Assembly (NCBI GenBank): GCA_016218065.1
Contig: JACRFA010000086.1
Location: 1-38,096, forward strand
Direction of reading: 5' to 3'
Source: Ignavibacteriota bacterium
Lineage (GTDB): Bacteria > Bacteroidota > Ignavibacteria > UBA10030 > UBA6906
DNA: 38,096 nt
Position numbers and translations under genes: made by a program. The notes under the pieces are model-generated. The model was not told where the DNA came from. It searched no databases and saw only the letters and a program-made list of their open reading frames with translations. This document shows, in pieces, positions 9,813-26,327 of the stretch; within the stretch, counting starts at the first letter, position 1, and every line of letters begins with the position of its first letter.

Positions 9813-10065
9813 ACTTGTTGGGCGATTCGCCGAATCGCCCGGTCGAGACAGCGTCTCGACCAAACGAATCTTGGAAACAAAACAGCGCTGCCGTTGAGAA
9901 CGAATTTGCAGACCACCATGCCATGAGTGAATGAACAGACTTGTTGGGCGATTCGCCGGAATCGCCCGGTCGAGACAGCGTCTCGACCAACAAATCTTGG
10001 AAACGAAACAGCGCTGCGGTTGCGAACGAATCTCAAACCACAACGCCGTATATGAATGAACATGT
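9813..10065. repeat. Structured leader repeat, block A (two tandem 126-bp units)
   Basis: Two units start at 9813 and 9939 (period 126). The core of the second, 9941-9993, folds as a perfect three-way junction: outer ttgtt/aacaa, arm 1 gggcgattc/gaatcgccc (loop gccg) and arm 2 ggtcgagac/gtctcgacc (loop agc), with no unpaired base at the junction. The first core is 9815 to about 9867. Each core is followed by a second hairpin (gcgctgc...gagaacgaatctc...aacgccg). The block lies directly upstream of the 1250-aa cargo gene and abuts the promoter of the plus-strand TumA-like gene. Confidence 0.85.
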
Positions 10066-10071
10066 CCGTAT

Positions 10072-10100
10072 TTGATTATCGTCGCTCAATTCGTTACAAT
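10072..10100 (+). promoter_or_regulatory. Sigma70-type promoter of the TumA/TumE-like pair
   Basis: TTGATT (10072-10077), 17-bp spacer, TACAAT (10095-10100). The spacer has ATC-N5-TCAATT-N3, exactly as in the promoters at 11706 and 12539. Transcription would start near 10107, ten bases before the ATG at 10117, which argues against the earlier in-frame ATG at 10099 because it overlaps the -10 box. Confidence 0.75.
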
Positions 10101-10116
10101 GGCCAGAGAGAAAACT

Positions 10117-10416
10117 ATGACTCAACTTAGCATACAGAGTAGCGACGAGCGCAAGAAGCAGCGCCTCAACACGTTGGTACAGCAGGCGCTTGACCGTGAA
10201 TCGAACCTATTGCGCTCCGCCATCGAGAAGACCCGCGCGCAGCTTACCGTGTTCGAGACGAAGCACGCCCTCTCCTCAGATGAGTTCTTCCGACGCTTCC
10301 AGGCCGGACAAACCGATGACTCCGACGACTTCGTGGATTGGTCGGGAGAATATCAGATCTACTTGAGCCTCCTCGAACAAGCAAACGCGCTAAAGGATGT
10401 TGTCGTGTGCAAGTAG
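10117..10416 (+). CDS. Small antitoxin-like protein, partner of a TumE-family toxin (TumA-like)
   Basis: The 99-residue product (MTQLSIQSSDERKKQRLNTL...) is largely helical. It contains the segment FETKHALSSDEFFRRFQAGQ.DDSDDFVDW, which I recognise from the small proteins usually encoded just upstream of TumE-type (DUF6516) toxins. The ATG at 10117 has AGAGAG six bases upstream and lies just past a good promoter; upstream in-frame starts overlap that promoter. Its end overlaps the start of the downstream toxin fragment by 10 bases, so translation was probably coupled. An acidic C-terminal half fits an antitoxin that neutralises a basic partner. With the toxin truncated, this is a leftover antitoxin. 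Assignment is from pattern memory, not from a search. Confidence 0.6.
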   Translation: MTQLSIQSSDERKKQRLNTLVQQALDRESNLLRSAIEKTRAQLTVFETKHALSSDEFFRRFQAGQTDDSDDFVDWSGEYQIYLSLLEQANALKDVVVCK

Positions 10417-10532
10417 AAGAGTACTTCACCTCCCTTCGTCATTCAATTACATCCTGCGCCCATGTTGCGTCCCACGAGATTGCCGAAGACGCCCGCACCC
10501 CCGTAGGAAGGTTTCTTCAAGGGACGTCTTGA
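10407..10532 (+). pseudogene. Truncated TumE-family (DUF6516) toxin gene
   Basis: Starting from GTG at 10407 the frame reads MQVEEYFTSLRHSITSCAHV, then ASHEIAEDARTPVGRFLQGTS and stop. This is the typical beginning of TumE-type toxins (YF..L...I..C..V......D.R....G...G), which usually continue with a DGS..L..E region for a total above 100 residues. Here only 41 remain. The break coincides with the last codons of a minus-strand T9SS sorting domain (10517 onwards): both genes lose their normal ends at the same place (about 10517-10535). I infer a recombination joint that fused an array gene end into the toxin gene. The product should be inactive. Confidence 0.6.
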
Positions 10533-11332
10533 GTTTTCTTCACGGCTACGAACACCTGCGCCTGCAACCGATACAGATATACTCCACTTGCAATACCACT
10601 CGCATCCCATTGCACCGGCTTGAACGGCTCGACTGAGCTCGCCGAAGTCCCCGCCTCCTGAACCTCATTCACCAGTCTATGACTGGTCGTTGACCAGCGT
10701 CGCAACTTCGCGACCGAGAATATCAAACACCTTAAGTGAAAAAACTCCCAAACCTGTGGTGAGCGGAGTCGAACCATTCGAACCTCCAAATCCCAATTGG
10801 CTATTGGAGCTTGGTATTTGGTATTTGATGATTGTACTCGGATTGAAAGGGTTGGGGTAGTTCTGATCGAGCGAGAATTGTGAAGGCACTTCTGTATTTC
10901 TCGCTTGTTCAACGAACGTGACGCCACCGTTGGTCGTTCGAAGAATCGGTCCGCCTTCGCCCACTGCCGTTCCTGTGTTTGCATCTATGAAAGCGACAGA
11001 ATTGAAATAAGAAGCCGCTCGTTTGGCGTGTCCAACTTGTGCCGGCATTCGTTGTACGAAGGATTGTGCCAGCATTTCCGACTGCCGTTCCAGTGTTCGC
11101 ATCAGTGAAGCAGACGCCGTTGAGTCGATCCGTCGTTCCGCTTGACTGGCGCGTCCACATTGCGCCGCCGTTGGTGGTGCGAAGAATTGTACCTTGGTCT
11201 CTCACCGCCGTTCCAATGTTTGCATCGCAGAAGGAAACACAATTGAGAGTATTCCATGGTTCTGCCAATACCACTGCGCTGTGCACAGGCTCGCGGCAAC
11301 GGCGAGCAAAAGAAACCTGAGAAGAGTTTTCA
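10517..11332 (-). pseudogene. Frameshifted YCF48/BNR-repeat T9SS cargo gene
   Basis: The gene starts at ATG 11332 with SD GGAGGC and signal peptide MKTLLRFLLLAVAASLCTAQ, like its neighbours. The reading frame then changes at least three times. Pieces in different frames give [65 protein letters not shown] (YCF48-like repeats) and [16 protein letters not shown] with [15 protein letters not shown], then a stop caused by a 17-bp palindrome (accagtctatgactggt), then [17 protein letters not shown] in another frame. The last residues are QDVP instead of LVLR because the end is joined to tumE. No single frame makes a full protein, so it is decayed; sequence error cannot explain the palindrome, which recurs at 16641-16662. 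Confidence 0.85.
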
Positions 11333-11361
11333 TGATGCCTCCTTATTGTTTAGTATGAGCA

Positions 11362-11646
11362 CAAAAACTGGCGCTGCCGCTGCGAACGAATCTCAAACCA
11401 CAAACGCCATGTGTGAAAGAACGTACTTGTTGGGCGATTCTCCCGAATCGCCAGGGTCGAGACTGTCCCGAAGGGACGCCTTCGGCGGAGTCTCGACCAA
11501 CAAATCTTGGAAACAAAACGGCCGTTGCCGCTGAGAACGAATTTGCATACCACAACGTCATGTGTGAATGAACAGACTTGTTGGGCGATTCGCCGGAATC
11601 GCCTGGTCGAGACAGCGTCTCGACCAACAAATCTGAAAAGCAAAAC
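11362..11646. repeat. Structured leader repeat, block B
   Basis: Contains two three-way-junction cores. B1 (11427-11503) has an enlarged second arm: outer gtcgagact (11456-11464) with agtctcgac (11489-11497), which itself holds two small hairpins, gtccc-gaa-gggac and gcc-ttc-ggc. B2 (11578-11630) has the short arm (gtcgagac-agc-gtctcgac). Linker hairpins (gctgagaacgaat...) lie between. The block sits upstream of the frameshifted cargo gene and next to the vapB-like promoter. Confidence 0.85.
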
Positions 11647-11705
11647 GAGGTGAGCAGAGAGAAGAGTATTTTGAATTTTTGCTTCTCTATGTTGATGGGT
11701 GATAG

Positions 11706-11734
11706 TTGACTATCATGATTCAATTGGGTAGAAT
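11706..11734 (+). promoter_or_regulatory. Sigma70-type promoter of the antitoxin/VapC pair, probably leaderless
   Basis: TTGACT (11706-11711), 17-bp spacer, TAGAAT (11729-11734). The GTG start codon at 11741 is six bases past the -10 box, so the transcript should begin at or within a base of the start codon. GATAGT-TG-ACTATC (11701-11714) is a perfect inverted pair over the -35 box and could be the operator. The spacer repeats ATC-N5-TCAATT-N3 seen at 10072 and 12539. Confidence 0.78.
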
Positions 11735-11740
11735 TCATTC

Positions 11741-11950
11741 GTGGAAACAGTGGAAGGAACATACAAGAACGGGCGCATCCACCTGTCAAAAAAGCCTCGC
11801 ACGCGCAAACCTGTCGAAGTGACGGTTGTCTTTCATACCTCGACAAGGCGCAAATTCCGTGGCTTGTCTGGAAAAGAGGAGAAGAAGTTGGTTGCACTCA
11901 AAGGGTTTGGCGGCGACGCATTGCTGGATACCGAGCAATTGTATTCATGA
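11741..11950 (+). CDS. AF2212/DUF104-like antitoxin (VapB role)
   Basis: A 69-residue basic protein: METVEGTYKNGRIHLSKKP then PVEVTVVFHTS and an alpha-helical tail (LSGKEEKKLVALKGFGGDAL). The EG.YKNG.I.L...P pattern is that of small AF2212/DUF104-type antitoxins, which pair with PIN-domain RNases. The start is GTG and probably leaderless, judged from the promoter distance. Its stop overlaps the ATG of the PIN toxin by four bases (ATGA at 11947-11950), a standard arrangement for coupled translation in TA operons. Since the downstream toxin gene is frameshifted, the antitoxin may now be unpaired or may guard related toxins elsewhere. Confidence 0.7.
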   Translation: METVEGTYKNGRIHLSKKPRTRKPVEVTVVFHTSTRRKFRGLSGKEEKKLVALKGFGGDALLDTEQLYS

Positions 11951-12422
11951 GCGCAGTCGTCATCGATTCGAACTTCCTTGTCGCCCTCATTGAGACCCGA
12001 AAGATGTTTGGCACCAGCGCGCTAGCGACATTGAGGCAGCACTCGACGAGAGAGTCACGCGACTTTTTCTTGACATCGTCATCGGCGAGTCACTCAGCGT
12101 CGTTGCTCGACGATGCGAGGAGCAAAGGCGGACACCAGATTTCGCCGCCATCATCTCCTCTGTGCAGGCTGCAATTCCAGCCTCAAGAATCCAGTGGACG
12201 GCATCGCTCGTCCGAACGCTTTACAATAAAATTCTTCAGATGATGGTCGCATACAACGGACAGTTGAACTTCAATGACTGCCTCATCGCGCTCTTCATGC
12301 AACGGAACAACTTGCAACACCTTGTAAGCTTCGATGCCGATTTCAATCTCTTGAGCACCATTCATCGTATCTCTTCACCCGAAGACCTACTACACGCAGG
12401 GTTGCCCGCACCGCGCCCGTGA
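11947..12422 (+). pseudogene. PIN-domain toxin gene (VapC-like) with a frameshift near codon 14
   Basis: The first 13-14 codons read MSAVVIDSNFLVALI, with the PIN catalytic Asp7. The frame then goes off. From about 11988 the other frame gives DPKDVWHQRASDIEAALDER and continues, through LFLDIVIGESLSVVARR, NFNDCLIALFMQRN and VSFDADFN, to the stop at 12420-12422. Joined, the two parts make a normal-sized PIN protein (about 157 residues) with the expected acidic residues. One base lost (or two gained) around ATTGAGACCC (11983-11992) explains it. It is either a recent inactivating mutation or a sequence error. The intact remainder indicates that the event is recent. Confidence 0.8.
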
Positions 12423-12447
12423 ATCAGAATCGTCATCCGGGATTCGA

Positions 12448-12500
12448 GTCTCGACCAACCTTCCCGCCTGCAACCGATAGAAGTACACTCCACATGGCAA
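12448..12500 (-). pseudogene. 53-bp remnant of a T9SS sorting-domain end
   Basis: On the minus strand this reads LPCGVYFYRLQAGRLVET, matching the last conserved part of the array sorting domains ([16 protein letters not shown]) at DNA level as well (cctgcaaccgata, tacactcca). Nothing else of the gene is left. It lies 25 bp after the VapC stop codon, so this TA module too ends next to a sorting-domain end. Confidence 0.75.
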
Positions 12501-12538
12501 TTGACCATTGAACATTATGACAGCTTTGCCTCTTCACC

Positions 12539-12567
12539 TTGACTATCACTCTTCAATTCGATAGAAT
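12539..12567 (+). promoter_or_regulatory. Sigma70-type promoter of the UPF0175/DUF3368 pair
   Basis: TTGACT (12539-12544), 17-bp spacer, TAGAAT (12562-12567), again with ATC-N5-TCAATT-N3 in the spacer. The match to the vapB-type promoter extends beyond the boxes (gactatca, ttcaatt, atagaat, gaaacag). The predicted start is near 12574, leaving a leader of about 90 bases to the ATG at 12663. Confidence 0.75.
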
Positions 12568-12662
12568 GATGCAGAAACAGATTCATGGATTACATTCAGA
12601 GTTCTCGAGACTCAGTTCCAGCACACGATGAAAGCATTCATCCGCAAGGGAAATGCCTACTT

Positions 12663-12893
12663 ATGGAAAACACAACCGTTACCACCGTTACCATAGAGCT
12701 TCCGACAAACCTCTCCAAAGACGAGGCACAGCTTCTTCTGGCCGTCAAGCTGTTTGAAGTTAACAAAGTCTCTCTGGGTCAAGCGGCGAAGCTCGCCGGA
12801 TTCTCCAAACGCGCCTTTATGGAATTTCTTGGGCGTTATCATATCCCCGTTGTCAATTACTCTGCTAACGAACTGCGAGACGAAATCCTCTGA
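12663..12893 (+). CDS. UPF0175 family antitoxin-like protein
   Basis: A 76-residue protein from ATG 12663 (MENTTVTTVTIELPTNLSKDEAQLL). It has the UPF0175 pattern: LLLAVKLFEVNKVSLGQAAKLAGFSKRAF, then MEFLGRYHIPVVNY and an acidic tail (SANELRDEIL). The middle part is a helix-turn-helix-like segment, so it may bind its own promoter. An in-frame ATG at 12585 would add 26 residues of poor character, and the family length (about 75-90) favours 12663. It is followed three bases later by a DUF3368 gene, the usual toxin partner of UPF0175 proteins. Confidence 0.85.
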   Translation: MENTTVTTVTIELPTNLSKDEAQLLLAVKLFEVNKVSLGQAAKLAGFSKRAFMEFLGRYHIPVVNYSANELRDEIL

Positions 12894-12896
12894 ATC

Positions 12897-13346
12897 ATGA
12901 AAGACCCGGTTGTCGCTGACAGCACATGCCTGATCGGTTTGGAGCGAATTGGTCGTCTCGATCTTCTTCCAATTGTATTTGAGAAGATTGCAATCCCGCC
13001 TGCAGTCCTGCATGAATTTGGAGTACAAGTGCCTTGGCTTACGGTCATGGCGCCCGCCAACAAATCCCTGACTGAATCGCTGCAACTGCTCGTTGATGAG
13101 GGGGAAGCGGCAGCTATTTCCCTTGCCAGCGAACTTGGATGGCGAGTCGTTCTCGATGATCGGCATGCCCGGCTGGTTGCGCTCCGGCTCAGTTTGCGAG
13201 TGATCGGAACAGTCGGGATTCTCCTTCGAGCAAAACAGGCGGCTGCGCTTCCGGCAATTCGCCCCCTCATAGACGATTTGGAGCATTCACATTTCTACAT
13301 CTCTTCCGCGCTCAAAGAAGAAGCACTGCACCTTGCTGGCGAGTAG
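12897..13346 (+). CDS. DUF3368 PIN-like nuclease, toxin partner of UPF0175
   Basis: A 149-residue protein of the DUF3368 type. Conserved acidic positions of the PIN fold are visible: Asp8 in VADSTCLI, Glu40 in AVLHEF, Glu70 in DEGEAAAI and Asp87-Asp88 in VVLDDRHAR, followed by the GTVGIL motif at 104-109. These would coordinate the metal for RNA cleavage, with no missing key residue. The ATG lies three bases after the UPF0175 stop, so the pair is one operon transcribed from 12539. It is the only complete TA pair in this window. It ends 48 bp before the converging M1 peptidase gene. RNase activity is inferred from the fold. Confidence 0.83.
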   Translation: MKDPVVADSTCLIGLERIGRLDLLPIVFEKIAIPPAVLHEFGVQVPWLTVMAPANKSLTESLQLLVDEGEAAAISLASELGWRVVLDDRHARLVALRLSLRVIGTVGILLRAKQAAALPAIRPLIDDLEHSHFYISSALKEEALHLAGE

Positions 13347-13394: not shown

Positions 13395-16070
13395 TCAGCG
13401 CAACATCAAACACTTCTTCGTCTCGACGAACGCATCGGCTCGCAGTCTGTACAGATACACTCCGCTTGCAACTCCCGATGCATTCCATTGCACGTTGTAT
13501 GTTCCTGGTTGCCTCACCTCATCCACCAGCGTCGCAACTTCGCGACCAAGAATATCAAACACCTTCAGCGTCACGCGACTGACCTCCGACCTCTGACCTC
13601 TGACTTCTGGTATCTGATATCTGATCTCTGTGGTTGGGTTGAACGGGTTGGGGTAGTTTTGTTCAAGCGCGAACATCAGAGGTATGCCCAGCATCTTCTG
13701 CTCCTCCACGGAAACAAGTCGATCATACATGGCAATGGCATCAATGCGCTGCGCCCATGTCTCCCCGATGATCTGTGAACTGCCAGGTGCAAAGCGGGCG
13801 AGATAGCCTCCTGTTTCGTCAAGTAGTCCGTACAATGTGTCTTCCGGACTGAACGCGATTGATGGTACGATGGTTGGCCAGCCGGCTTTGAAGGCAAATG
13901 TTGCAGTTCCGTTGTTGCGATCTATAGTGAAGAGACTGTCATTGTCAAACGGTTGACGTAATGACGCCCAAAGTTTCTTTGTCACTGGACTGAACGAAAG
14001 ACCCGAATAGGCTCTACCGGTGGAAGTACCGATGGCTGTGGCAGCGCCGGTTGTGAGATCAATGCGGTAGAGACTTCCGGCAGTCGTTGCCCCGAACAAT
14101 GTATCTCCCGCCGAAAACGCGATGGCTCGCATGTTCGGAACCATGAGAGTACGTTCGAACAATCCTGCGCCCGTCGCGCTCGAGATGCGATGCAAATATG
14201 TTCCAAAGCTATAGGGCGAAACTCCGTAGAGTTCTCTTGTCGTTGGCCGGATGGCAAGGCCTTGAATTGGATGTGGTCCTATCAAGCCAATGATCGTCGC
14301 GATGCCGCTGTCCCGACTCACCGTGTAGAGATTGGATGAGGCCCCGTACAACACGTCACTCATCGCCGGCGTTATGGTCGGAGCAGGCGATGCGGTTTTC
14401 AGTATCCAGTTGTTTGGATCCAATTGACCCGTGGTTGGAAGGAGCGGAACATGGACGTTGAAAGTTTGGTCAGCAAGAGTGTTCATCAAAACCACCGTGG
14501 TATCTAGACCGATTCCGGCAAGTCTGAAATCTACCGGCATTGTGAAGAATGTCGGATTCGCGGTTCCGGTTGTTTGTCGAATCCTGATCGGCACGATGTA
14601 TCCGCCATCGGTATCGGGAATGGCCTGCCAGGAATATGTGTACTGCGGATACTTCTCACCGTAGATCCACTCGTCGAAGAAGTAGCTGAGTTGAGTTCCG
14701 AAGACCGTCTCGCACACTTGCTTGAAGTTTTCGGTTGTTGCCACTCCAAACCGAAAGCGCGAATCGTTTGCGTACGCGCGAATCGACCGAAAGAACGCTG
14801 AATCGCCAAGCACATGTCTGAGCATATGAAGAACCGTCGCACCTTTGGCATACACCAGATTCCAGTTGAATAATGTGTTGAGATTCAACGTGTCCCGAAT
14901 GTAGATTGAGCCAACAGCATTTCTTGCGCTGTTCATGCAACTGGTCACATAGCTCCAGTAGGATGATGATCCATACTTTCCCTCATTGTACACGGCTGTG
15001 GAGTAAGTGGCGAAGCCTTCGTTCAGCCAAATGTTCGACCAGTTGGCACAAGTGATCATATCGCCAAACTATTGATGGGCGAGCTCGTGAGCCAAGACCC
15101 ATTCTTCGCTGAAACCAAACGATGTCATCGTTTGGTTTTCCAAGGCGCTGCCGGTCCAACCGAATTCGGCGTGCCCATACTTCTCCATGACAAAGGGGTA
15201 GAGGGAGTATTTGTCCGAGAAGATGCGAAGCATGTCAATAGTTTTCGGAAGGTCGATCTGTGCGGTCGCAAGGTGTTCGGGCAACACGTAGTTCAGAACA
15301 GGCATCGAATCGGTCGGTGTGTATTTGAACCAGTTCGTAAATTCAGCGTAGTTAGTGGTTGCTAATGAGACAAGCTCTGTGCTAATGGGATATCGCTCAG
15401 CCCACTTGTAAGTTGTTGTCCCATTCCCATTATCGATCACCGCAACGAGCTTGCCGTTCGAGCCAACTTTGTTAGAGATTCCTACTGTAACCCAGATATC
15501 GACTGAGTCGGCCTTATCCAAAGGATGGTCCTTGCAGGGCCACCAGTCCCTCGCACCGTATGGCTGGCTGAATGTGTACACCCAGGGTACACCTCCATGA
15601 CTTGAAAACCTCAAGCCGTCACCGACTGGTACACCGCGATAGTAGATATCTATGGTGACCAGTTCGCCGTTTCCATACGTTCGGTTAAGCGTGATGGTGA
15701 AGGTGGTTGGCTGCTGTGAAAAGGCAAGCCTGGTAGCTCCCACCTTTACCGAATCGACTATCATTGTATTCATCAGGTCAAGCGTAACTGATGAGAGATT
15801 GCTAACCGAACTCACGGCCTTCATCGTCACTGTGCCCCGCAAATAATTCGGGGCAGTAGTTATCGTGATGTTGAGCTTGTAGTATTTTACGTCGATGTTC
15901 GGATCGGATGCCGGCTTACTCTTTGCATTCATCAACGATGCATAACTTCGTGCCTCGCTTTTTACGAGAGCTTCCTTTTCTGTCATCATTGATTGTGGAA
16001 CAGCTTGTCCAAACGCTGCGCCAGCGACTGTGCAGAGCACTGCCAGCGTAAAGAGAAGAAGAGTTTTCAT
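13395..16070 (-). pseudogene. T9SS-exported M1 aminopeptidase with an amber codon in the zinc-binding motif
   Basis: One frame from ATG 16070 (SD GGAGG; signal peptide MKTLLLFTLAVLCTVAGAAFG) to 13395, 891 codons, is interrupted only by TAG at 15069-15071. Translation gives the M1 (gluzincin) features: substrate motif ALENQTM, HELAH at 328-332, then Gln333, the stop at 334, then FGDMITCANWSNIWLNEGF with Glu351. The spacing HEXXH-18-E is exact when the stop counts as one residue, and this position is Trp (HELAHQW) in the family, so TGG changed to TAG. A propeller-like region (VLYGASSNLYTVSRDSG) and a T9SS domain from about 807 follow. Other genes here end in TAG, so recoding is unlikely; a nonsense mutation or a sequence error is likelier. 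Confidence 0.88.
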
Positions 16071-16099
16071 TGTTGCCTCCTGCTTGTATGGTGAGAGAG

Positions 16100-16463
16100 C
16101 AAAACGGCGCCGCCTCAGAGAACGAATCTCAAACCACAAACGCCGTGTGTGAATGAACAGACTTGTTGGGCGATTCTCCCGAATCGCTTGTGTCGAGACT
16201 GTCCCGAAGGGACGCCTTCGGCGGAGTCTCGACCAACAAACCTTGAAAACAAAAAAGCGACGCTGCCGCTGCGAACGAATCTCAGACCACAAACGCCGTG
16301 TGTTAATGAACAGACTTGTTGGGCGATTCTCCCGAATCGCCAGAGTCGAGACTGTCCCGAAGGGACGCCTTCGGCGGAGTCTCGACCAACAAATCCTGAA
16401 AACAAAAAAAAGGCGCTGCCATTGAGAACGAATCTCAGACTGCAACGCCGTATGAGAAATAAC
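16100..16463. repeat. Structured leader repeat, block C
   Basis: Two long-form three-way-junction cores, C1 (16163-16239) and C2 (16316-16392), period about 153, both with the enlarged arm gtcgagact...agtctcgac containing gtccc-gaa-gggac and gcc-ttc-ggc. Linker hairpins (acggcg...gagaacgaatctc...cgccgt) lie before, between and after. The block fills the space between an orphan sorting-domain end (16488) and the M1 gene start (16070). Confidence 0.85.
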
Positions 16464-16487
16464 AATCGTATCGCCAACCGCTGTTGG

Positions 16488-17449: not shown

Positions 17450-17735
17450 TTACCTCAGCACCAGACACTTCTTCGTCTCGACAAATCCTCCCGCCTGCAA
17501 CCGATACAGGTACACGCCGCTTGCAAACGCCGACGCATCCCACGGCACCGAGTATGTTCCCGGTTGTTTCACCTCGTTTACCAGCGTCGCGACTTCACGC
17601 CCGAGAATATCAAACACCTTAAGTGAAACAAATCCCAAATCCGAAACCCCAAATCCCATTTGGCGATTGGAATTTGGTATTTGGTATTTGATAGTTGTTG
17701 TTGGGTTGAACGGGTTGGGGTAGTTCTGGTCAAGG
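17450..17735 (-). repeat. Sorting-domain DNA module, copy 1
   Basis: This 3' end matches those at 20784-21063 and 23081-23360 almost base for base, including silent positions and a hairpin-forming insert. The three passengers upstream are unrelated. Confidence 0.85.
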
Positions 17736-20452
17736 CTATAGGTTGTCGCAACAAGGTCAGTTCCTCCCTCATCTACGTCTACAGTTGCCTGCGTATATTT
17801 CACTGTTGCAATGACGCTCCAGTTGCTTGCCTGGCATGTTCCGGTTACGTACACGTTGTTTGACGCGTCGAGTGCTAGGCCTGCAACGAGATTAGAATGA
17901 TCACCTGTGCCGCAGAAGCGACCGCTCCAGGGCTGAACACCCGAGGAGTTGTATTTCGTTGTGTTGTAATCTGTAGTTGAACCCTGCAGTCTTGTGTGCG
18001 CGACGTATATATCACCGTTTCCATCCATTTGCATGTGCGCCCCAGACGACCAATAGTCAGCCAGACCGGGTGAGCGCATAGCCCATTGTTGTACTCCGGA
18101 GGGACTGTACTTTACCGTCACCACGTCTGCACCAGTTGCCGTGGCGCTGACTCCCATGACCAAAACATTGTCTGAGTTGTCCACAGCAATATGCGTAGCC
18201 TCGTTCCAGATGCTGTCCTGCCCTCTATACCTTGCCACCCACTTCTGTACCCCTGCCGCGTCATATTTTATTGTGAGGTAGTCAACAGGGTAGACTTCCC
18301 ACCAAGATCTTTTCTTGCTGCTTCCCGCCACATAGACATTAGCTGATCCATCGAACGCAATCGCGTTCGTCGCCGCCTGAGCGTAGCCAGGACCCGGACC
18401 GTATCTCGCAACCCATTGTTGTACTCCTGCGGAATTATACTTGACCGTCACGCAGGCGGTGTCACAGGCTCCCGTGATATACACGTTGCCGGAATTGTCA
18501 ACAGCAAGCGCGGGGGATGTATAATTACCCGCACATCGTGCGACCCACTGTTGTGCCCCGAGTTGGTCATACTTGATGGTGAGAAAAGAGTTACCAGCTG
18601 AGCCGGTGACGTAAACGTAGCCAGACTGGTCAACGAAAAGAGTCGATGGGGGATTCAAAATCTCGCCGGTCTCACGGTACGCTGCCACCCACTGCCGCGA
18701 TCCGTTCGGCCTGTATTTGATGATGACATACTCATTTAACGAGGCCCACTGAGTGCTTGCGCTGTATCCCAAGACGTACGCATTCCCCGACCTGTCGGAC
18801 CTAATCGCCACGGCGCCATTGTACAAGCTTCCCTGCCTCCCATATCTTGCTGCCCATTGTTCAATGCCGACAGCGTCGTACTTGACCGTTACAATATCTG
18901 TCGTAGAGCCTGTTCCTTGGCTGTTCCCTGCGACGAACGCATTCCCAGATCCATCTACGGCAACATCAACGGCGATTTCTTTGGACAACCTCGGACCGTT
19001 GTACAGAGCTGCCCACTGGGATACTCCCGCAGGATTATACTTCACGGTGGCAAAATCTTCGGGAATCTGTGAAGTGTTCGTAGAGCCTGTGACGTAGATG
19101 TTGCCTGAGCGATCAACAGCTAGTCCGGAAGGAGCATCGGTAGCAGCGTTTCCCGGTCCGTTGTAGCGTATCGCCCATTGCTCAACACCAATCGAGTTGT
19201 ATTTCACGACTGCATAGTCTGATCCGGTTGTTTGAGTGAATCCAATTCCTAAGACGATCACATTTCCTAATCCGTCAATCACGAATGCGGACGCCGGGTT
19301 GCGATATCGCTGCAGCCCTCCTTGGTAGGACGCAAACCATTGTTGAACACCGGCGCGATTGTATTTCAGCGTAACGATAGCTGAAGCAGAGATACCGGGA
19401 TTTGAACTGTCGACAATGCCACCATTCACGAACACACCACCGGAATCATCGAGCGCTATTCCCTTCATGATCGCGGCAGTGTTACCTGGAGCGATGTATG
19501 TCGACACCCACATCTGGTTGCCCGATGGATTGTAGCGTACAGTTGCACCGCATTGTCGGGAAGGAGTTGTGGAGGTCATGCTTGTTCCTGTGGCGTACAC
19601 GTTGCCGGAGTCGTCAACGACAACACCCGAGGCAACGTCGTCGCGATTTGCGGGGCCATTGTACCGTGAAGCCCATTGCTCAGTTCCCTGTGGACTGTAT
19701 TTGATTGTGAGGTAATCGGCACTTGATGATGCTGGGACGTGAATGCTTCCAGAGACATACACGTTGCCAGCGTTGTCAATATAGTTGGCGACTGGCACAG
19801 CACTGCCGCCAGTTGCGGTATATCGCGCTACCCACACTTGAGCCCCATTCACATCGTATTTGACAGTTGCTATCTCAGGATATGACTGTCCTGATGCTGC
19901 ATAGATTCGTCCGGTTATGTACGCATTCCCCGAACGATCTACAGCCAGCGCAACAACACTGTTGAATGTGGAGGCTCTCGGCCCAGCATAGTATGCTTCC
20001 CACTGCAGAACACCCAATGATGTATACTTGACCGTTCTGAATGATGTCCCCAGCGGCGTGCTGTTGTTGCCCGTGACAAACACACTCCCAGCAGAATCAA
20101 CGGCAATGGCAACAGCACTACTGTTCGATTCTCCGCCGCCGAAGCTCGCCATCCACAACGTGTCTCCGTTAGGCGAGTATTTAATGGTAATCTGCTCGGA
20201 GCCGCTCGTTCCCGTAACACAGACACTTCCATCTCTCGCGTCGACTGTAGTAGCGCGAGCGATATCGGATCTCTCCACAAGTCCGGCAGCGAATGTCGCC
20301 ACCCAGGATTCTCGAAGGGAGTCGCTCAACTGCGAAACCGGAACAGTACCATTTGTTATCGGCACTGTGCTCGATTGCCAATGTGATTGGGTTGACTGGG
20401 CAAGTACTCCGCCCCCAGCCACGAGCAAAAGAAATGTGAGAAGAGTTTTCAT
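17450..20452 (-). CDS. SBBP-repeat beta-propeller protein with T9SS sorting domain
   Basis: A 1000-residue exported protein from ATG 20452 (SD GAGGC, signal peptide [20 protein letters not shown]). Longer in-frame extension upstream runs through the leader repeat and is not protein-like. About fifteen repeats follow with the pattern [39 protein letters not shown]; these are SBBP repeats, which form propeller blades. No catalytic motif is visible. Residues from about 909 form the T9SS domain ([16 protein letters not shown], insert [30 protein letters not shown], final KKCLVLR). It should be displayed at the cell surface, perhaps as an adhesin or binding scaffold. The last 285 bp are nearly identical to the ends of the two following genes. 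Its stop converges on the protease gene with two bases between. Confidence 0.92.
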
Positions 20453-20479
20453 GATTGCCTCTTTTGTTGTTTGGTGAGA

Positions 20480-20668
20480 AAACAAAACGGCCCTGCCTCT
20501 CAGAACGAATCTCAAACCACAACGCCGTGTGTGAAAGAACAGATTTGTTGGGCGATTCTCTCGAATCGCTTGTGTCGAGACAGGAGTCTCGACCAACAAA
20601 CTCGGAAACAAAACGGCGATGCCCCTGAGATCGAATCTCAGAACACAACGCCATAGTTGAGAATGAAC
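20480..20668. repeat. Structured leader repeat, block D
   Basis: One three-way-junction core at 20545-20599: outer ttgtt/aacaa, arm 1 gcgattc/gaatcgc, arm 2 gtcgagac-agga-gtctcgac. Linker hairpins lie on both sides; the left-of-hairpin one (20615-20655) has a perfect ctgagat-cga-atctcag stem. The block is upstream of the SBBP gene start. Confidence 0.85.
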
Positions 20669-20687
20669 GAATGCAGATTACTATGAT

Positions 20688-20783: not shown

Positions 20784-21063
20784 CTATCTCAATACCACAA
20801 GCTTCTTCGTCTGCACAAAACTCCCCGCTTGTAGCCGATACAGATATACACCACTTGCAATACCACTCGCATCCCACTGCACCGAGTATGTTCCGGGTTG
20901 TTTCACCTCGTTTACCAGCATCGCGACTTCACGCCCGAGAATATCAAACACCTTAAGTGAAACAAATCCCAAATACGAAACCCCAAATCCCATTTGACGA
21001 TTGGAATTTGGTATTTGGTATTTGATAGTTGTTGTTGGGTTGAACGGGTTGGGGTAGTTCTGC
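20784..21063 (-). repeat. Sorting-domain DNA module, copy 2
   Basis: Nearly identical to copies 1 and 3 from ttcacctcgtttaccag to gggttggggtagttctg. The final codons (KKLVVLR) are the most different part. Confidence 0.85.
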
Positions 21064-22859
21064 AACAACGCGTACTCCCGAGGAGAAGCATTGTGTTCAG
21101 CCACAGAGACAGGAGTATAGGTAACTATTAAACGACTTGAGTCTTTGTACACCTTCACTCCGGGAATCGTGATCAGGCCGCTGTCGTAAACAAAAGATGC
21201 CTGCTGCACTGCGATGTTGTTCCGGCGATTCTCCCAATTGATTCTGTACCCTAGTGAAACGCTAAACCTCTGCAGTCTTCTCAATGTCACGTCCGTTGTT
21301 GCGGAGTCCGGCACGATGTCGGGACCGAAGATGGTCGCCAGGTCTTTCAGCCGCAGAGTGATCTCCCATCTATCGGCTAAGTCAACGATGTTGTCATTCC
21401 AATCAAGGTGGCCATTGATTGTGCCGATCGAATCTCCGTTCGTCGGGTTTCCATTACCGGGGTTATTGTTGATGGAACAATTTGTGAAAGCCGGGTATGA
21501 GAGATTCGTTCTGAATCGAGTGAAGAAAGAGAAGTTTGGGAAACTTGGCTGCCATGGAGAATTGGTGAACACTTGCTGGTGATTAGTCCAACTCCAAAAA
21601 TGAATAGCTCCATGTCTATTAATATTTAGTGAATCATAGAAGGCTATTTTTTCCTGCCACCCAACGTTCAAATCGTTTTTACCACAGAACGAAAAAATAA
21701 TTGGCAAAGCATTCAGTCGGTTGATGGACGAAAGATACCCCGCGTGCAACCTCTGGTTTCTCGTGAGGCCTTCGTTCGTGGGAAGGTTGGTCTGATATGT
21801 ACCATACAGTCTCTCCATTATCGGTATGATGACTGGATTGCTAAGGGGTGGTGAACACACCTCGAACAGAGGAGCAAACAAGAACACCGCGGCAATCTTG
21901 GAAGGCATCAACATTGCGGTGAAAACTGACCCAATGGCTCCCAGCGACCAACCGTTCAGGTATGTCCTCGTCGTATCCAAGGGGTAGTTACGCAAACACC
22001 AATTTATTGTCCACGCAACACGTGCCGCAGAGTAGTTGTGAAGCGTCCCCGTTGCATGCACAGCATTCGAATTTGAGAAAATGTCGTAGTTAGCGTGGAA
22101 GCCATAATACGTTGTAAAAGCATCCGAGGTATTCGGCACCCAGTCATCCAAAGTCACTATCCATTCGTTAGGATCACCAATGCCAGAGATAATATTGTTT
22201 GCAAGGAAGCTGCTTCCGGACGCATGCATCCAAAATGTGGCTGGATGAATTGATGCGCTCCCTTGTTTGATGATCGCAAAGTTGAAAGGAAAAGAACCCA
22301 CATTGATCATTTGAGGATAGAACGATGATGTGACCTTCGTGGCGAATTGAATGTAGATCTCATACATTCGTGAGCCGACGGTTCTGTTTTCCTGCCAGAC
22401 GGGTCTCGGCACTGCAATCGTCTCAACAATTGGCGATGCGAGAGAATTTGACCAGAACCATATCGTTGTATCTTCAAGGCCACCTGTTGTCGTCGTGACT
22501 GCATAATAGAATGATCCGTTCGTTGTCGTGGTTGCTACGAAAAGTCCCTGCGTGCTCGCAAGCGGAGCTCCAGCCGAATCGATTTTCAGATATTTTGTGG
22601 ACCCAAGAATAGTTGATAGTCTCTGGTTTCGCGCAGAGTTATCCCGAACCGAACCCAAATTCTGCGCTGACGAAAGCTGAGACCCATACTCGATTGGATT
22701 GGGTGAACGGTAGAGTGTGTAAAGAACATTCGTCGTCGTGAGATTGTCCCACGTAATGAACACCTGACCGTCACGATAGAATGCGCTGATGTTAGTGACT
22801 GGAGTTGCATGCACGCTCGCCGCAAACGCGAGCAGAATAAGCGTGAGAAGAGTTTTCAT
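20784..22859 (-). CDS. T9SS-exported serine hydrolase (alpha/beta-hydrolase, esterase/depolymerase-like)
   Basis: A 691-residue protein from ATG 22859 (SD GGAG; signal peptide MKTLLTLILLAFAASVHA). An FnIII-like N-terminal domain (SAFYRDGQVFITWDN...YTLYRSPNP) is followed by a catalytic region. GWSLG at about 302-306 gives the nucleophile Ser, FCGKNDLNVGW near 395 the likely Asp, and a His in HFWSWTNHQQVF near 418-427. The strand before GWSLG (TRTYLNGWSLGAIGSVFTAM) and the following A-A-hydrophobic region (IAAVFLFAPLFE) fit an alpha/beta-hydrolase of the secreted esterase/PHB-depolymerase type. The T9SS domain ends it (KKLVVLR). The passenger is unrelated to its neighbours, but leader start and tail are shared. 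It may attack a polyester or acyl-polysaccharide; substrate is inferred only. Confidence 0.82.
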   Translation of the reverse strand: MKTLLTLILLAFAASVHATPVTNISAFYRDGQVFITWDNLTTTNVLYTLYRSPNPIEYGSQLSSAQNLGSVRDNSARNQRLSTILGSTKYLKIDSAGAPLASTQGLFVATTTTNGSFYYAVTTTTGGLEDTTIWFWSNSLASPIVETIAVPRPVWQENRTVGSRMYEIYIQFATKVTSSFYPQMINVGSFPFNFAIIKQGSASIHPATFWMHASGSSFLANNIISGIGDPNEWIVTLDDWVPNTSDAFTTYYGFHANYDIFSNSNAVHATGTLHNYSAARVAWTINWCLRNYPLDTTRTYLNGWSLGAIGSVFTAMLMPSKIAAVFLFAPLFEVCSPPLSNPVIIPIMERLYGTYQTNLPTNEGLTRNQRLHAGYLSSINRLNALPIIFSFCGKNDLNVGWQEKIAFYDSLNINRHGAIHFWSWTNHQQVFTNSPWQPSFPNFSFFTRFRTNLSYPAFTNCSINNNPGNGNPTNGDSIGTINGHLDWNDNIVDLADRWEITLRLKDLATIFGPDIVPDSATTDVTLRRLQRFSVSLGYRINWENRRNNIAVQQASFVYDSGLITIPGVKVYKDSSRLIVTYTPVSVAEHNASPREYALLQNYPNPFNPTTTIKYQIPNSNRQMGFGVSYLGFVSLKVFDILGREVAMLVNEVKQPGTYSVQWDASGIASGVYLYRLQAGSFVQTKKLVVLR

Positions 22860-22885
22860 GATTGACTCCTTTGTGTTAGGTGTGA

Positions 22886-22946
22886 GAAACAAAACGGCGA
22901 TGCCCCTGAGATCGAATCTCAGAACACAACGCCATATGTGAATGAA
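22886..22946. repeat. Structured leader repeat, block E (linker hairpin only)
   Basis: Only the linker half is present: acggcgatgccc, a perfect ctgagat-cga-atctcag hairpin and aacgcca...gaatgaac. It matches the corresponding part of block D (20615-20666) almost exactly. The three-way-junction half is missing. It lies upstream of the hydrolase gene. Confidence 0.75.
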
Positions 22947-22966
22947 CAAATATAAATTACCGCGAC

Positions 22967-23080
22967 CGTAGAGACGTTCATGGTTCGACTTCCTGCCCGC
23001 CGGTCGAAGATTCCCGACGGGTCGGCCTACGGCCTCGTTGAGGGTCATCGACGATTCCCCGAGCAAGCGGGCGCTCACCG
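22967..23080. repeat. Half copy of the 75-bp palindromic element, with an internal insertion
   Basis: cgtagagacgttcatggttcgacttcctgcccg matches the left part of the 20688 element in two pieces, followed by about 65 unrelated bases and then gcgggcgctcacc, which matches its right-centre. The right 14-bp end is missing; the sorting-domain gene end begins there (23081), so the element was cut by the same kind of joint seen elsewhere in the array. Confidence 0.65.
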
Positions 23081-23360
23081 CTACCTCAGCACCAAACACT
23101 TCTTCGTCTCGACAAATCCTCCCGCCTGCAACCGATACAAATACACTCCACTTGCAACACCACTCGCATCCCACTGCACCGACTTGAACCCTGCACCCTG
23201 AACCTCATTCACGAGCGTTGCGACTTCACGACCGAGAATATCAAACACCTTAAGTGAAACAAATCCCAAATACGAAACCCCAAATCCCATTTGACGATTG
23301 GAATTTGGTATTTGGTATTTGATAGTTGTTGTTGGGTTGAATGGGTTGGGGTAGTTTTGC
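23081..23360 (-). repeat. Sorting-domain DNA module, copy 3
   Basis: Matches copies 1 and 2, including the caaatcccaaata...tatttggtatttg inverted insert. It has an NEVQGAGFKSVQ segment instead of [12 protein letters not shown], which relates it to the remnants at 10517 and 16488 without their TSASSVEP insert. Confidence 0.85.
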
Positions 23361-25978
23361 TCAAGCGCAAACGTTTTTGGGAGTCCGTTCACAGGCTCAT
23401 CCACACCATCGACTAGTGTTGGGTTCTCGCACGCACCGATATCCGGTCGCGTTCCGGCAGGACTCGGACGCGGCATACCGTAGGTGCAGAATGGAGGCGC
23501 ATGATACCAGGCCCCATCGATCTGCACAGAGTCGATTCCTTTTTGCAGACACCCGCTCGTGTTTGCGAGGCGATACGTACCGTCGGCAAACTGCGGATTG
23601 ACACTGATGTTGCCGGAGTCCGAGGGCCAGCCATTCGTAACATTCGAATAGAGAACGCGAATGCTGCCACTTTGTATGTAGATCTCGTTTGACGCTGTAT
23701 CCCCCCAAACAATTGAGTTGATGACTTTGGGAATCCAGCTTCCACGTGTCGCGATTCCTCCGCCGCTACCACTCGTTGCTTTGTTGTAGGCAATCGTGTT
23801 GTTAATCAGGGTTGGAGGCGCAACGACCATGCTCGGAGTATACAGCGATGAATGATGTCCCTGCTCCGATATCCTGCCGAATACCGCTCCGCCTCCATCG
23901 TCGGCCGGTTTCTCCGATGCTGCCAGATACACTCTTGCGCAGCCAACTCCGCCCGCAAGGTACGCGGTGTTCTTCACAATGATGTTGTTTTCAATCCGCG
24001 CCGCCTCGTCAAACGCCATGATGCCTCCACCTCCGCCAAGGTTTCCACCTATGGCTTTGTTCGACGATATGATGTTGTTGACAACAAGAGTCTGCCTTTG
24101 AACTTCAGCAGCCCAAAAGCTGACTCCACCAGCGTAGCTTGAGATGTTACTCGGTCCTTGCACTTGATTACCGGTAACGATGTTCTCTCGAAACTGCACA
24201 CTGCAGCCGTACGCGTGCATTCCACCGCCGACATTGATGTCCCCTGTGCTAAGACTGCTTGCCGTGTTTCCACTAATCAAGTTCTTCGTGACGACGAAGT
24301 TTCCATATTGGATAATAAGTCCTCCGCCCAAACAGTTGTTCTGCGTGCCTGCTGCCGTGCTGGTCATCGTGTTGTTCAGTATTTTGTTGTTTTCTATTCT
24401 CACTGTCATGTTCTTCCACGTTGCTGCTGCGCATCCAATCCCACCACCTCCACTTTGACCAGCGGTGGTCGCCGTGTTGTTATTGATCCTGTTACTTTCA
24501 ATAATGAGATATGCTCCGTCATTCAGGCTACACCATATGCCAGTTCCGCCTGCACCGTGCGTGGGATGGGAGATCGAATTGCCTTCAATGCAGTTATGTA
24601 CAATACGAGCTCCAGCATCGCAGAGCACTCCCCCTCCATACCGAGGTGTGTATGGTGGAAACGTTACGCGGTCAATCGTTCCCGTTCCACCCGTAATCGT
24701 AAATCCACAAAGGACTGAATTTGTATCTTCGCCGGACGTGAAGTACACAACAGAACCACTGTCAGCATGAAGACCGAAACTACCGTTGATAATTGTACGC
24801 GAGATGTGCGAGGTATCGTTGGTTGTAATGAATGTGCTCGCAACGACAATCTTCTTTCCGTTGAATCGAATGTTCTCGTAGTACGTTCCGTCCGAGACCA
24901 GCACTGTATCGCCGTGCACCGATGCGTTGATGGCAGATTGGATTGTCGCGTATTGCGAGGGAACGCGACGGACGGTTCCTACTCGTGGCGACGTTGCGTG
25001 ACCGATTCGCCAGAGATAGGTGCCGGTCGGCGAGCGACTGCCATCGTACCACATATCGAAGATTGTACCCTGGCGAAGCAAGACTGATCCTGACTCAGCG
25101 TAGTTTGCATCCCAACTTCCGCTCGATCCCGGCACCAAGACAGGATTTGCTGCGTGCCTCGTCCAGGTTATACCTCCATTTGTTGAGGTCGCCAAACCAA
25201 TCATTCGCGTGGTTTCAGGGTTACGGACACCGAGGTACCAGAGGTAGAATGTGTTGTTAAGTTCAAGGGCACCGGTTGCGAAGACATTCCAATCATCCCA
25301 CGCTCCTGGCGTACCCGGCACAAAGACTGGATTGTTGAGCGTATCTTTCACCCAGTTGATTCCATCAATTGAAGTCGCAAGCCCGATCTTCCGCCTTGTG
25401 ACACTGGCATCTGTACCGGTGTACAACATCTTGTATCGTCCTGATGAAAGGACGACCAAGCAAGATGATACTCCACCTGACTCCCATGAGCTGGTTCCCG
25501 CGCCTAAGACTGGTGTTGAATGTTTGGTCCAGTTGATCCCATCAGGAGATGTGGCGTACCCAACGTGAGAACCATTGGTACCCAATCCTGTATACCACAT
25601 CTTGTACTGCCCGTTTTCGCGAATGACTGCTGGAAATTCAACGCTAAGCTCATCCCATGTTCCTGTAGTCGGAGAAAGAACAGGGTTGTTGGAACGCCTT
25701 GTCCAAGTCACTCCATCAGGCGAATACACAAGACCTATCCTGTAGGGGCGCCACGAAATCTCGGGACCGTATGACCCCGTGTACCACATCTCGTATCTCG
25801 CTGAATCGGAGTTGAACAAAACCATTGGTCCAAACACATGCTTGTCCCACGTCCCGTTGCCGCTGCCCGAGAAAATCGGATTCTGGGCATTCTTTGTCCA
25901 GACGTACTGCCCAATGGCTGACTCTGCACATACAAAAAGGCAGAGCAAGAAGAGAAAGAAGCTAACGAGTGTTTTCAT
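23081..25978 (-). CDS. T9SS cargo: GH43/GH32-like propeller fused to a right-handed beta-helix
   Basis: A 965-residue protein from ATG 25978 (SD GGAGG; signal peptide MKTLVSFFLFLLCLFVCAES). Residues about 25-330 carry repeats such as MWYTGSYGP, SPDGVTWTRRSNNPVL, YKMWYTGLG and LATSTNGGITWTRH, the pattern of five-bladed GH43/GH32/GH130-like propellers. From about 339 a pectate-lyase-like beta-helix starts (VPSQYATIQSAINASVHGDTV then LVSDGTYYENI), with rungs like RIENNIIVKNTAYLAGGVG. A T9SS domain follows from about 876. It probably binds or cleaves a plant or algal polysaccharide at the surface. No clear catalytic acid pair is identifiable by eye, so binding alone is possible. Upstream in-frame extension falls in the leader repeats and was rejected. 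Confidence 0.85.
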   Translation of the reverse strand: MKTLVSFFLFLLCLFVCAESAIGQYVWTKNAQNPIFSGSGNGTWDKHVFGPMVLFNSDSARYEMWYTGSYGPEISWRPYRIGLVYSPDGVTWTRRSNNPVLSPTTGTWDELSVEFPAVIRENGQYKMWYTGLGTNGSHVGYATSPDGINWTKHSTPVLGAGTSSWESGGVSSCLVVLSSGRYKMLYTGTDASVTRRKIGLATSIDGINWVKDTLNNPVFVPGTPGAWDDWNVFATGALELNNTFYLWYLGVRNPETTRMIGLATSTNGGITWTRHAANPVLVPGSSGSWDANYAESGSVLLRQGTIFDMWYDGSRSPTGTYLWRIGHATSPRVGTVRRVPSQYATIQSAINASVHGDTVLVSDGTYYENIRFNGKKIVVASTFITTNDTSHISRTIINGSFGLHADSGSVVYFTSGEDTNSVLCGFTITGGTGTIDRVTFPPYTPRYGGGVLCDAGARIVHNCIEGNSISHPTHGAGGTGIWCSLNDGAYLIIESNRINNNTATTAGQSGGGGIGCAAATWKNMTVRIENNKILNNTMTSTAAGTQNNCLGGGLIIQYGNFVVTKNLISGNTASSLSTGDINVGGGMHAYGCSVQFRENIVTGNQVQGPSNISSYAGGVSFWAAEVQRQTLVVNNIISSNKAIGGNLGGGGGIMAFDEAARIENNIIVKNTAYLAGGVGCARVYLAASEKPADDGGGAVFGRISEQGHHSSLYTPSMVVAPPTLINNTIAYNKATSGSGGGIATRGSWIPKVINSIVWGDTASNEIYIQSGSIRVLYSNVTNGWPSDSGNISVNPQFADGTYRLANTSGCLQKGIDSVQIDGAWYHAPPFCTYGMPRPSPAGTRPDIGACENPTLVDGVDEPVNGLPKTFALEQNYPNPFNPTTTIKYQIPNSNRQMGFGVSYLGFVSLKVFDILGREVATLVNEVQGAGFKSVQWDASGVASGVYLYRLQAGGFVETKKCLVLR

Positions 25979-25997
25979 AATGCCTCCTTGTTGTTGA

Positions 25998-26050
25998 GCG
26001 AGACTCCCCGCCTGCCCAGTTGGTATGGTTAGGCGGGCAGGCAGTCTCGC
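25998..26050. repeat. Palindromic element in the leader of the propeller/beta-helix gene
   Basis: gcgagact (25998-26005) pairs with agtctcgc (26043-26050), and gcctgccc with gggcaggc inside. It lies just upstream of the Shine-Dalgarno of the 25978 start. Confidence 0.65.
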
Positions 26051-26109
26051 TTGCGTTTGTTGAGTTAGTGGTCGAGTCTGGTTGACAACTCGCAGAGAGC
26101 CTCGACCTG

Positions 26110-26327
26110 CGAAACAAAAAACGGCGCTGCCTCTCAGAACGAATCTCAAACCACAACGCCGGGTGTGAAAGAACAGACTTGTTGGGCGATTCGCTCGACG
26201 AGTCGAGTCATCGACCGAATCGCCCGGTCGAGACAGCGTCTCGACCAACAAATCCGGAAAACAAAAAACGGCGCTGCCTCTGAGAACGAATCACAGACAC
26301 GCGCCGTTTATGAAAATGTATGAACAG
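26110..26327. repeat. Structured leader repeat, block F
   Basis: Core at 26179-26251: outer ttgtt/aacaa, arm 1 gggcgattcg/cgaatcgccc with an enlarged interior (ctcgacgagtcgagtcatcgac), arm 2 ggtcgagac-agc-gtctcgacc. So here arm 1 is the expanded one, while B1, C1 and C2 expand arm 2. Linker hairpins acggcg...cgccgg and acggcgc...gcgccgt flank it. Confidence 0.85.

Follow-up and report, generated by a model that had tools for sequence, protein, structure and literature searches.

Three-way-junction repeats in a type IX cargo gene cluster of an Ignavibacteriota bacterium as probable REPIN-type dimers multiplied by duplication

Repetitive extragenic palindromes (REPs) with a GTAG foot are described, in the passages cited here, as forming head-to-head dimers that occur singly or in tandem together with flanking DNA (PMC3733652, Di Nocera et al. 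2013; PMC3116915, Bertels & Rainey 2011); such dimers are termed REPINs (REP doublets forming hairpins) or BIMEs (bacterial interspersed mosaic elements). Single-stranded REPs are bound and cleaved by TnpAREP, according to the cited part of PMC8266576. For subclass 2.4 of these REP-associated tyrosine transposases (RAYTs), the classification given in the cited part of PMC6006769 (Quentin et al. 2018) lists the motifs NH[IFV]H, WQ and YIxNNP, “double foot” REPs, and REPs located inside the transposase gene with the frame left intact. We analyzed a stretch of 38,096 bases (the window; contig JACRFA010000086.1 of assembly GCA_016218065.1) from an Ignavibacteriota bacterium, in which a run of genes on one strand encodes cargo of the type IX secretion system (T9SS) and eight structured cores, each foldable into a three-way junction, lie among these genes. 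An earlier note on this DNA had described the cores as a structured repeat placed in front of six cargo genes. What appeared to be a regulatory RNA is here recast as pairs of REPs amplified along with a family of secreted-protein genes: the cores are very probably REPIN/BIME-type dimers of a RAYT-linked family that were multiplied by duplication within the cargo cluster.

Cores were located with a script that required two adjacent perfect hairpins and a closing outer stem, using thresholds that were fixed after the cores had already been seen. The script returned eight matches in the window, exactly the eight sites already noted and nothing else, and the same script applied to dinucleotide shuffles of the whole window gave none in 5 shuffles and two in a further 20; the eight cores thus stand well above chance. 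The outer stem (ttgtt/aacaa) and both arms are present as had been claimed, as are the enlargement of arm 2 in B1, C1 and C2 and that of arm 1 in F1 (Table 1; letters denote the blocks in which the cores lie). The description of the core as perfect needs two corrections: the outer stem of A1 is interrupted by an additional A, and the outermost pair of arm 1 fails in 2 of the 8 cores and is G-U in 3. The fold is stable and its arms are stable hairpins. At gathering scores, no Rfam family matched in the window. Among the eight cores the arms are nearly invariant and the covariation that the earlier note proposed to look for is absent (0 of 23 pairs changed on both sides), so that from these eight alone a selected fold can be neither demonstrated nor refuted.

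Read outward, both arms of a core are REPs of one kind (GTTGGGCGATTCGCCGGAATCGCC and GTTGGTCGAGACGCTGTCTCGACC): in each, a GTTGG foot leads into a short hairpin (GTTGGGCGATTC... and GTTGGTCGAGAC...). Because the arms are of the same make, the core is a footed palindrome joined to an inverted copy of itself, and this architecture argues strongly that each core is a head-to-head dimer of inverted REP palindromes (REPIN/BIME) with the common foot GTTG…CAAC. On one DNA strand, the foot GTTGG is succeeded by a short hairpin, a second hairpin built alike and the complementary foot CCAAC, and pairing of the two feet closes the three-way junction. Of 17 cores of this genome, 15 have GTTG as their 5′ foot, and in other genomes 12 of 20 cores have GTAG; a GTAG-like foot therefore precedes the short palindrome, with GTTG as a variant. 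As far as the cited passages of PMC3116915 and PMC3733652 describe REPINs and BIMEs, the cores share with them the inverted pair of REPs, the tetranucleotide foot on the outside, the capacity to fold singly or together, heterodimeric arms, and tandem clusters that include flanking DNA, and a partner spacing of 1-2 bp is given for some published families. They differ in having the GTTG foot, in the 0-4 nt between arms whose feet close a three-way junction, and in a low copy number, with 8 of the 20 cores found lying in one cluster and with double-hairpin inserts nested in some of them.

A covariance model (R1) built from the eight cores was applied to this genome (G000), where the best 150 of 893 candidates were scored, and across 100 genomes, where at most the best 56 candidates per genome were scored; all counts obtained with it are lower bounds, and absences are not proven. 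At least 12 further matches were found at nine loci of this genome (E<0.01). Matches at E<=0.001 occur in 15 of the 100 genomes, G000 included (35 of 100 at E<=1). The family is present in the same order of bacteria, where GTAG feet are more frequent. Of 37 non-redundant cores, drawn from this genome and from others of the order, 28 were aligned without regard to structure, the other 9 being the four long-loop window cores, L061, L064, L120, one of two at L121, and L207. RNAalifold regained the same junction from this alignment, and both partners change in 14 of its 21 pairs; none of 500 shuffles of the alignment reached the real value on any of the five measures used. The middle pair of the foot swaps between T-A (12 cores) and A-T (11 cores), which indicates that most dimers carry the same foot in both halves. 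The earlier note had called a minus-strand 5′ UTR RNA into question on the basis of stem-end changes that are G-U compatible on the plus strand only. That argument does not survive the larger set: counted by pair type over the 28 cores, 13 G-U cells as read stand against 8 A-C cells, which is not a clear bias. A symmetric dimer presents a REP on either strand, so the strand puzzle dissolves. Two other views of that note, the fold as a conserved and copied entity and single-stranded DNA as a live option, were in our judgment right. The coupled change of the feet (GTTG/CAAC versus GTAG/CTAC) offers a natural test of foot recognition by RAYTs.

Matches to the RAYT model NF047646 (NCBIfam REP_Tyr_transpos) are present in all 15 core-bearing genomes, in 13 of them above the 80-bit cut-off and in G000 below it. 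At three places (G090:C123, G014:C115 and G014:C270) a core lies within the RAYT match or adjoins it, and at a fourth (G070:C693) there are cores on both sides of the match; judged from these sequences, the relatives strongly suggest that the family is linked to RAYTs. The RAYT of G000, on contig C285, has 246 residues and the motifs NHIH, WQ and YVLNNP, which are those of TnpAREP subclass 2.4 with V replacing I, and the G090:C123 protein (NHVH, WQ, YVLQNP) is two positions off. Both genes contain in-frame REPs, a trait of that subclass. In C285, GTAG-footed REPs are in frame at the 5′ end (GTAGAGCGACTC...) and between the HuH and Y motifs (GTAGAGCGATTC...), and GTAG-footed hairpins flank the gene on both sides; the stem of the C285 REPs is similar to that of the cores, and the foot is GTAG, not the GTTG form. 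The protein is 50% identical to the core-bearing G090 RAYT and weakly matches the TnpAREP of PDB entry 4er8 (E=0.0023 over 44 residues). Set beside subclass 2.4 as characterized in the cited part of PMC6006769, C285 agrees in its motifs, in REPs between HuH and Y that leave the frame intact, and in GTAG...CTAC double feet. It differs in an extra REP at its 5′ end, and most cores here have T at foot position 3, where the paper gives GT[AG]G. A second RAYT of the C285 type in this genome, C284, is a 53-residue fragment. Given the GTAG feet of C285 and the fragmentary C284, the cognate enzyme for the GTTG form may have been lost, or its gene may be absent from the assembly, and a link between the GTTG form in this genome and a RAYT is proposed with moderate confidence.

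Two PF01797 genes of this genome (C106 and C288) were considered as cognate transposases and dropped, since they score as IS200-like TnpA with the signature Y..[NH]Q.E[HY]H; NF047646 later gave better RAYT candidates that the PF01797 search had not listed. By a set rule, no GTAG- or GTTG-footed hairpin was found in 21 of 36 RAYT loci (L237-L256 and L261-L276, some of which are one gene repeated), nor by the same rule in four regions of G002 chosen for weak R1 matches. Further RAYT-like genes of this genome lie at L257 (G000:C110) and L259 (G000:C208), with motifs YIELNP and YVELNP and nearby GTAG-footed hairpins (GTAGGGACATG... and GTAGGGGCGAGG...).

GTAG- or GTTG-footed hairpins were also often seen near IS200-like Y1 transposase genes (L191, L205, L006, L144, L147, L148, L160 and L199), mostly with the signature Y..NQ.EHH, and at L191 and L205 they occur on both sides of the gene. 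Such hairpins number 15 in 52 Y1-transposase loci (163 kb), and ten shuffles gave 0-1 of them; two controls with other feet gave 4 and 4. Note that 20 of the 52 loci were chosen from core-bearing genomes, that L207 was extended to take in a core, and that three of the 15 hairpins (those of L207) are distant from the gene. Subclass 1.2 transposases are listed with “no” REP in the cited part of PMC6006769. In G083, a Y1 transposase gene lies between two identical three-way-junction elements with the foot TCGGAT...ATCCGA (L143:1369-1412 and 2255-2298).

Outside the window, the matches in this genome lie at contigs C46, C68, C245, C247, C130, C316, C228, C249 and C292, so that the family is dispersed, mostly intergenic and multicopy (eight plus at least 12 copies). 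One locus, C316, is directly upstream of a confirmed cargo gene; C46 follows a cargo gene, the end of its downstream gene being out of view, and C292 faces the end of another. No adjoining T9SS gene was detected at 6 of the 9 loci (4 of 6 among the well-preserved dimers). Neighbors identified by Pfam are a histidine kinase and its regulator at C68, which carries a tandem REPIN array of four copies with 66-bp spacing, an acetyltransferase at C245, an Omp85 protein and MgtE at C247, an NlpC/P60 protein at C130, a PepSY protein and hemerythrin at C228, and a sodium symporter at C249. The linkage to T9SS genes claimed from the window is therefore not borne out by the rest of the genome, and the copies are scattered regardless of such genes, the outcome that the earlier note had named as counting against it. 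T9SS-tail matches number at least 150 (150 of 321 candidates were scored), so that some cores beside such genes would be expected anyway. In the sister species G001, REP arrays or repeats are located between NiFe hydrogenase and helicase genes and before a peroxidase gene. A tandem array at G001:C15 (L227) has 128-bp units with the REP hairpin GTAGGGCGATTC and other hairpins, and a similar unit is found at G001:C4 (L228); neither directly adjoins a T9SS gene.

Cores also occur within coding sequence. A gene of the molybdopterin-dehydrogenase family (xanthine-dehydrogenase-like) has an in-frame core at one orthologous site in G001 and G002, and its G000 ortholog has no core and other palindromic sequence at the site. 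This species-level difference supports transposition and falls short of showing it. In G000:C154 (L213, ∼1392-1566), the in-frame insert of other palindromes lies exactly where G001 and G002 hold the REP dimer, and we read the site as a tolerant loop that gathers palindromic inserts.

Several observations weigh against reading the cores as RAYT-linked dimers. The copy number is low (at least 20 cores in G000), and the copies at C228, C249 and C292 are half decayed, with one clear arm each. The set used for covariation was gathered with a structure-bearing model, which favors paired copies. Movement of the cores rests on comparison rather than direct observation, and the coding-gene case compares species with species, not strains, with a different insert in the G000 gene. 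On the side of the enzyme, the G070 RAYT match contains a stop; in G014:C115 the reading frame passes through the insert and is broken downstream of it; and C285 scores 68.2 bits with NF047646, for which the curated cut-off is 80 bits, and gave no match to Pfam at E<=0.001. Its REPs are GTAG-footed, while 15 of this genome's 17 cores have GTTG as 5′ foot. No RAYT was recognized among the window proteins scanned, which represent part of the window's open reading frames (ORFs), and most of the other RAYT loci inspected are without such a core.

What had been noted as a second hairpin (ctgaga/tctcag in ggcg/cgcc) is a repeated linker between the cores, designated h2. As a conserved structure it is not upheld, because its pairs erode uncompensated in the 12 copies: 86.7% of cells are paired, 444 of 500 shuffles are equally good, and RNAalifold yields 4 pairs at -2.1 kcal/mol. 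Linker and core alternate with a unit spacing of 125-153 bp within blocks; the alternation fails in block E, where h2 is present and the core is absent. Beyond contig C1, the best match to h2 was no better than E=0.07 among the best 40 of 52 candidates scored. Several of the cargo genes themselves resemble each other in their 5′ leaders (101 nt, 69-77% alike) and C-terminal coding ends (278 nt, 87-90% alike), near-duplicates that point to local duplications. An origin of the array by duplication is well supported. A RAYT of the “subclass 2.4” type may act on the single-stranded hairpin and so copy or move the repeat; a GTTG-footed REPIN would have settled beside h2 ahead of a cargo gene, and REPIN and h2 together would then have multiplied through tandem duplication, as well as through duplication or recombination between paralogous cargo genes.

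Duplication inside a single run of paralogous genes best accounts for the association with cargo genes. Because these genes run on one strand, any intergenic repeat there will automatically have a cargo gene downstream of it, and a dedicated role in cargo expression is not needed to explain the pattern. In cargo genes A, C, D and F, a block does lie ahead of the start codon. The count of six cargo genes, with no other genes behind the blocks, requires correction: behind block B lies a frame-shifted gene remnant, an in-frame stop interrupts gene C, and the gaps with blocks A and B also precede plus-strand ORFs without a Pfam match. Literature searches on REPINs in Bacteroidota returned nothing related, judged by title, and a search on Ignavibacter and REPs returned a Caldithrix paper only.

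Compatible with this duplication of REP dimers, and in our estimation unlikely, is that the dimers, transcribed along with the cargo genes that lie on either side of them, have been locally co-opted, for protection of mRNA 3′ ends, as a stop for RNA polymerase or for binding of gyrase, which REPs are able to bind. The array is within a run of co-directional genes and the arms are stable hairpins, as such a function would have it; block B precedes a gene remnant, however, gene E has no core, and the REP arrays of sister G001 lie by hydrogenase, helicase and peroxidase genes. Functional roles are ascribed to REPs generally in the cited parts of PMC8266576 and PMC3733652.

It is improbable that the eight cores represent eight separate transpositions into a favored site by cargo genes. 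The family is dispersed in the genome, as transposition would have it, but homologous h2 linkers flank the cores, units keep the spacing given above within blocks, and no copy of h2 was seen in the rest of the genome among the candidates scored. The common linkers lead us to reject independent insertion of all eight, for which duplication is the simpler account.

A structured 5′ untranslated RNA (riboswitch or leader) that regulates the cargo genes has a lower probability still, and was rejected due to the other gene contexts, the symmetry and the coding insertions. The position before the start codons of genes A, C, D and F and the B remnant, and a stable fold kept in the family, are what a leader would show. 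The motif is symmetric, however, without clear strand bias; most outside loci have no detected T9SS neighbor; gene E lacks a core; copies are found within coding genes; and neither an Rfam match in the window nor covariation among the eight cores was seen. Confinement to one gene class, strand-specific pairing and membership in a described RNA family, which mark cis-regulatory leaders, were thus not found. Integron attC-like recombination sites can be dismissed almost outright, since single-strand folding and a 5′ GTTGGGC that fits GTTRRRY are offset by boxes that on inspection are inside out (GTTGGGC...CCAAC here, RYYYAAC...GTTRRRY in attC), by arms that are two perfect hairpins, and by copies in and beside RAYT genes.

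The most novel finding here is a small double-hairpin insert that recurs across the genome, at some places with exact empty sites. In B1, C1 and C2, arm 2 is enlarged by a 22-bp unit that is made up of two small hairpins (GTCCCGAAGGGACGCCTTCGGC), and enlarged arms, which had been taken for variable loops of one fold, are better read as separate mini-palindromes inserted into it; comparison with the empty arm of D1, in which the 24 flanking bases differ at one or two positions, suggests that the branches of B1, C1 and C2 arose by insertion of this unit into the loop. The arm-1 insert of F1 is different from the 22-bp unit and has relatives at L007 and L032 of the same genome. A pattern for the double hairpin matched at 48 forward and 53 reverse places in G000, with many places counted on both strands, and the reversed pattern matched once in each direction. 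It matched in 40 of 60 genomes (this one included), with at least 10 matches, strands summed, in 16 of 60; the control also matches, up to 5 times per genome, so that single matches in relatives mean little. L017, L025, L028 and L044, and L056 versus L024, have filled and empty sites that agree at all of 24 flanking bases, in a listing that includes many readings of the same pairs. The inserts of L017, L025 and L028 are in 3′ fragments of tRNA genes beside intact tRNA-Ser, -Val and -Pro genes, and that of L044 has its empty counterpart at window positions 4739-4762. The inserts occur in palindrome tips and in the T-loops of tRNA 3′ fragments adjoining an intact tRNA gene, with insert ends certain to about one or two bases. 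Outer stems surround 10 of 43 double-hairpin copies (shuffled mean 3.2, maximum 9), a value inflated by the array's own copies. Note that 43 rows are not 43 elements, as both strands were read; the case rests on the filled and empty pairs.

The double-hairpin elements of fungal mitochondria consist of two adjacent hairpins inserted as a unit, and the filled and empty pairs give the 22-bp insert the same character. The insert may work like these elements, a likeness only that carries no claim of descent. We tentatively propose, at somewhat less than even odds, that two layers of structure-seeking mobile DNA are present, the REPINs and a 20-22 bp double-hairpin insertion element. The latter could possibly be made of two hairpins of ∼9-11 nt with variable stems and the centers CGAAG and CTT[C/T]G, and could also have entered the loops of REPIN arms. 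Its insertion might be clean, with target duplication not above about one base, a point we hold with the same reserve. The fungal mitochondrial elements, and the repetitive hairpin elements of sponge mitochondria, are like the insert small hairpin-forming repeats thought to be mobile, in the cited part of PMC2800124; the units here differ in being bacterial, 20-22 bp long, and located in palindrome tips and T-loops of tRNA 3′ fragments. Literature searches for such units brought up organelle genomes, and no bacterial case was recognized among their titles and the starts of their abstracts. If truly inserted as a unit, the double hairpin would rank with the smallest known transposing units, as a bacterial counterpart of the mitochondrial elements and possibly a new kind of mini-element separate from REPINs, and the exact empty sites raise the question of what inserts or copies so small a double hairpin in a bacterium. 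Another 20-22 bp double-hairpin insert was seen at window positions 33336-33352.

Table 1. Positions of cores, inserts, linkers and cargo genes in the window
Feature	Positions	Strand	Remark
REP dimer core A1, outer stem imperfect	9815..9869	.	
REP dimer core A2	9941..9995	.	
REP dimer core B1, double-hairpin insert in arm 2	11427..11505	.	
REP dimer core B2	11578..11632	.	
REP dimer core C1, double-hairpin insert in arm 2	16163..16241	.	
REP dimer core C2, double-hairpin insert in arm 2	16316..16394	.	
REP dimer core D1, arm 2 empty	20545..20601	.	
REP dimer core F1, arm 1 enlarged	26179..26253	.	
22-bp double-hairpin insert, arm 2 of B1	11465..11486	.	vs empty D1: 2 mismatches/24
22-bp double-hairpin insert, arm 2 of C1	16201..16222	.	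vs empty D1: 1 mismatch/24
22-bp double-hairpin insert, arm 2 of C2	16354..16375	.	vs empty D1: 2 mismatches/24
21-bp insert, arm 1 of F1	26194..26214	.	extent by comparison with A1
Linker repeat h2 (A1)	9873..9940	.	
Linker repeat h2 (A2)	9999..10070	.	
Linker repeat h2 (B1)	11357..11426	.	
Linker repeat h2 (B2)	11508..11577	.	
Linker repeat h2 (C1)	16093..16162	.	
Linker repeat h2 (C2)	16246..16315	.	
Linker repeat h2 (C3)	16399..16465	.	
Linker repeat h2 (D1)	20475..20544	.	
Linker repeat h2 (D2)	20602..20671	.	
Linker repeat h2 without core (E1)	22883..22952	.	
Linker repeat h2 (F1)	26109..26178	.	
Linker repeat h2 (F2)	26256..26330	.	
T9SS cargo gene behind block A	5986..9738	-	Por_Secre_tail
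Frame-shifted remnant, cargo-like gene behind block B	10517..11333	-	reading of three frames
M1-peptidase-like cargo gene with in-frame stop, behind block C	13395..16070	-	
T9SS cargo gene behind block D	17450..20452	-	
T9SS cargo gene behind E (h2 only)	20784..22859	-	
T9SS cargo gene behind block F	23081..25978	-	

The stop in the M1-peptidase-like cargo gene is a single in-frame TAG at 15069-15071 (minus strand), in the region of the zinc motif (HELAHQ*FGD), and is either a nonsense mutation or an assembly error. Between blocks B and C, the plus strand carries a short ORF without a Pfam match, a UPF0175 protein gene and a DUF3368 protein gene (11741-11950, 12585-13346); we read the small UPF0175 and DUF3368 genes as being of the toxin-antitoxin type.

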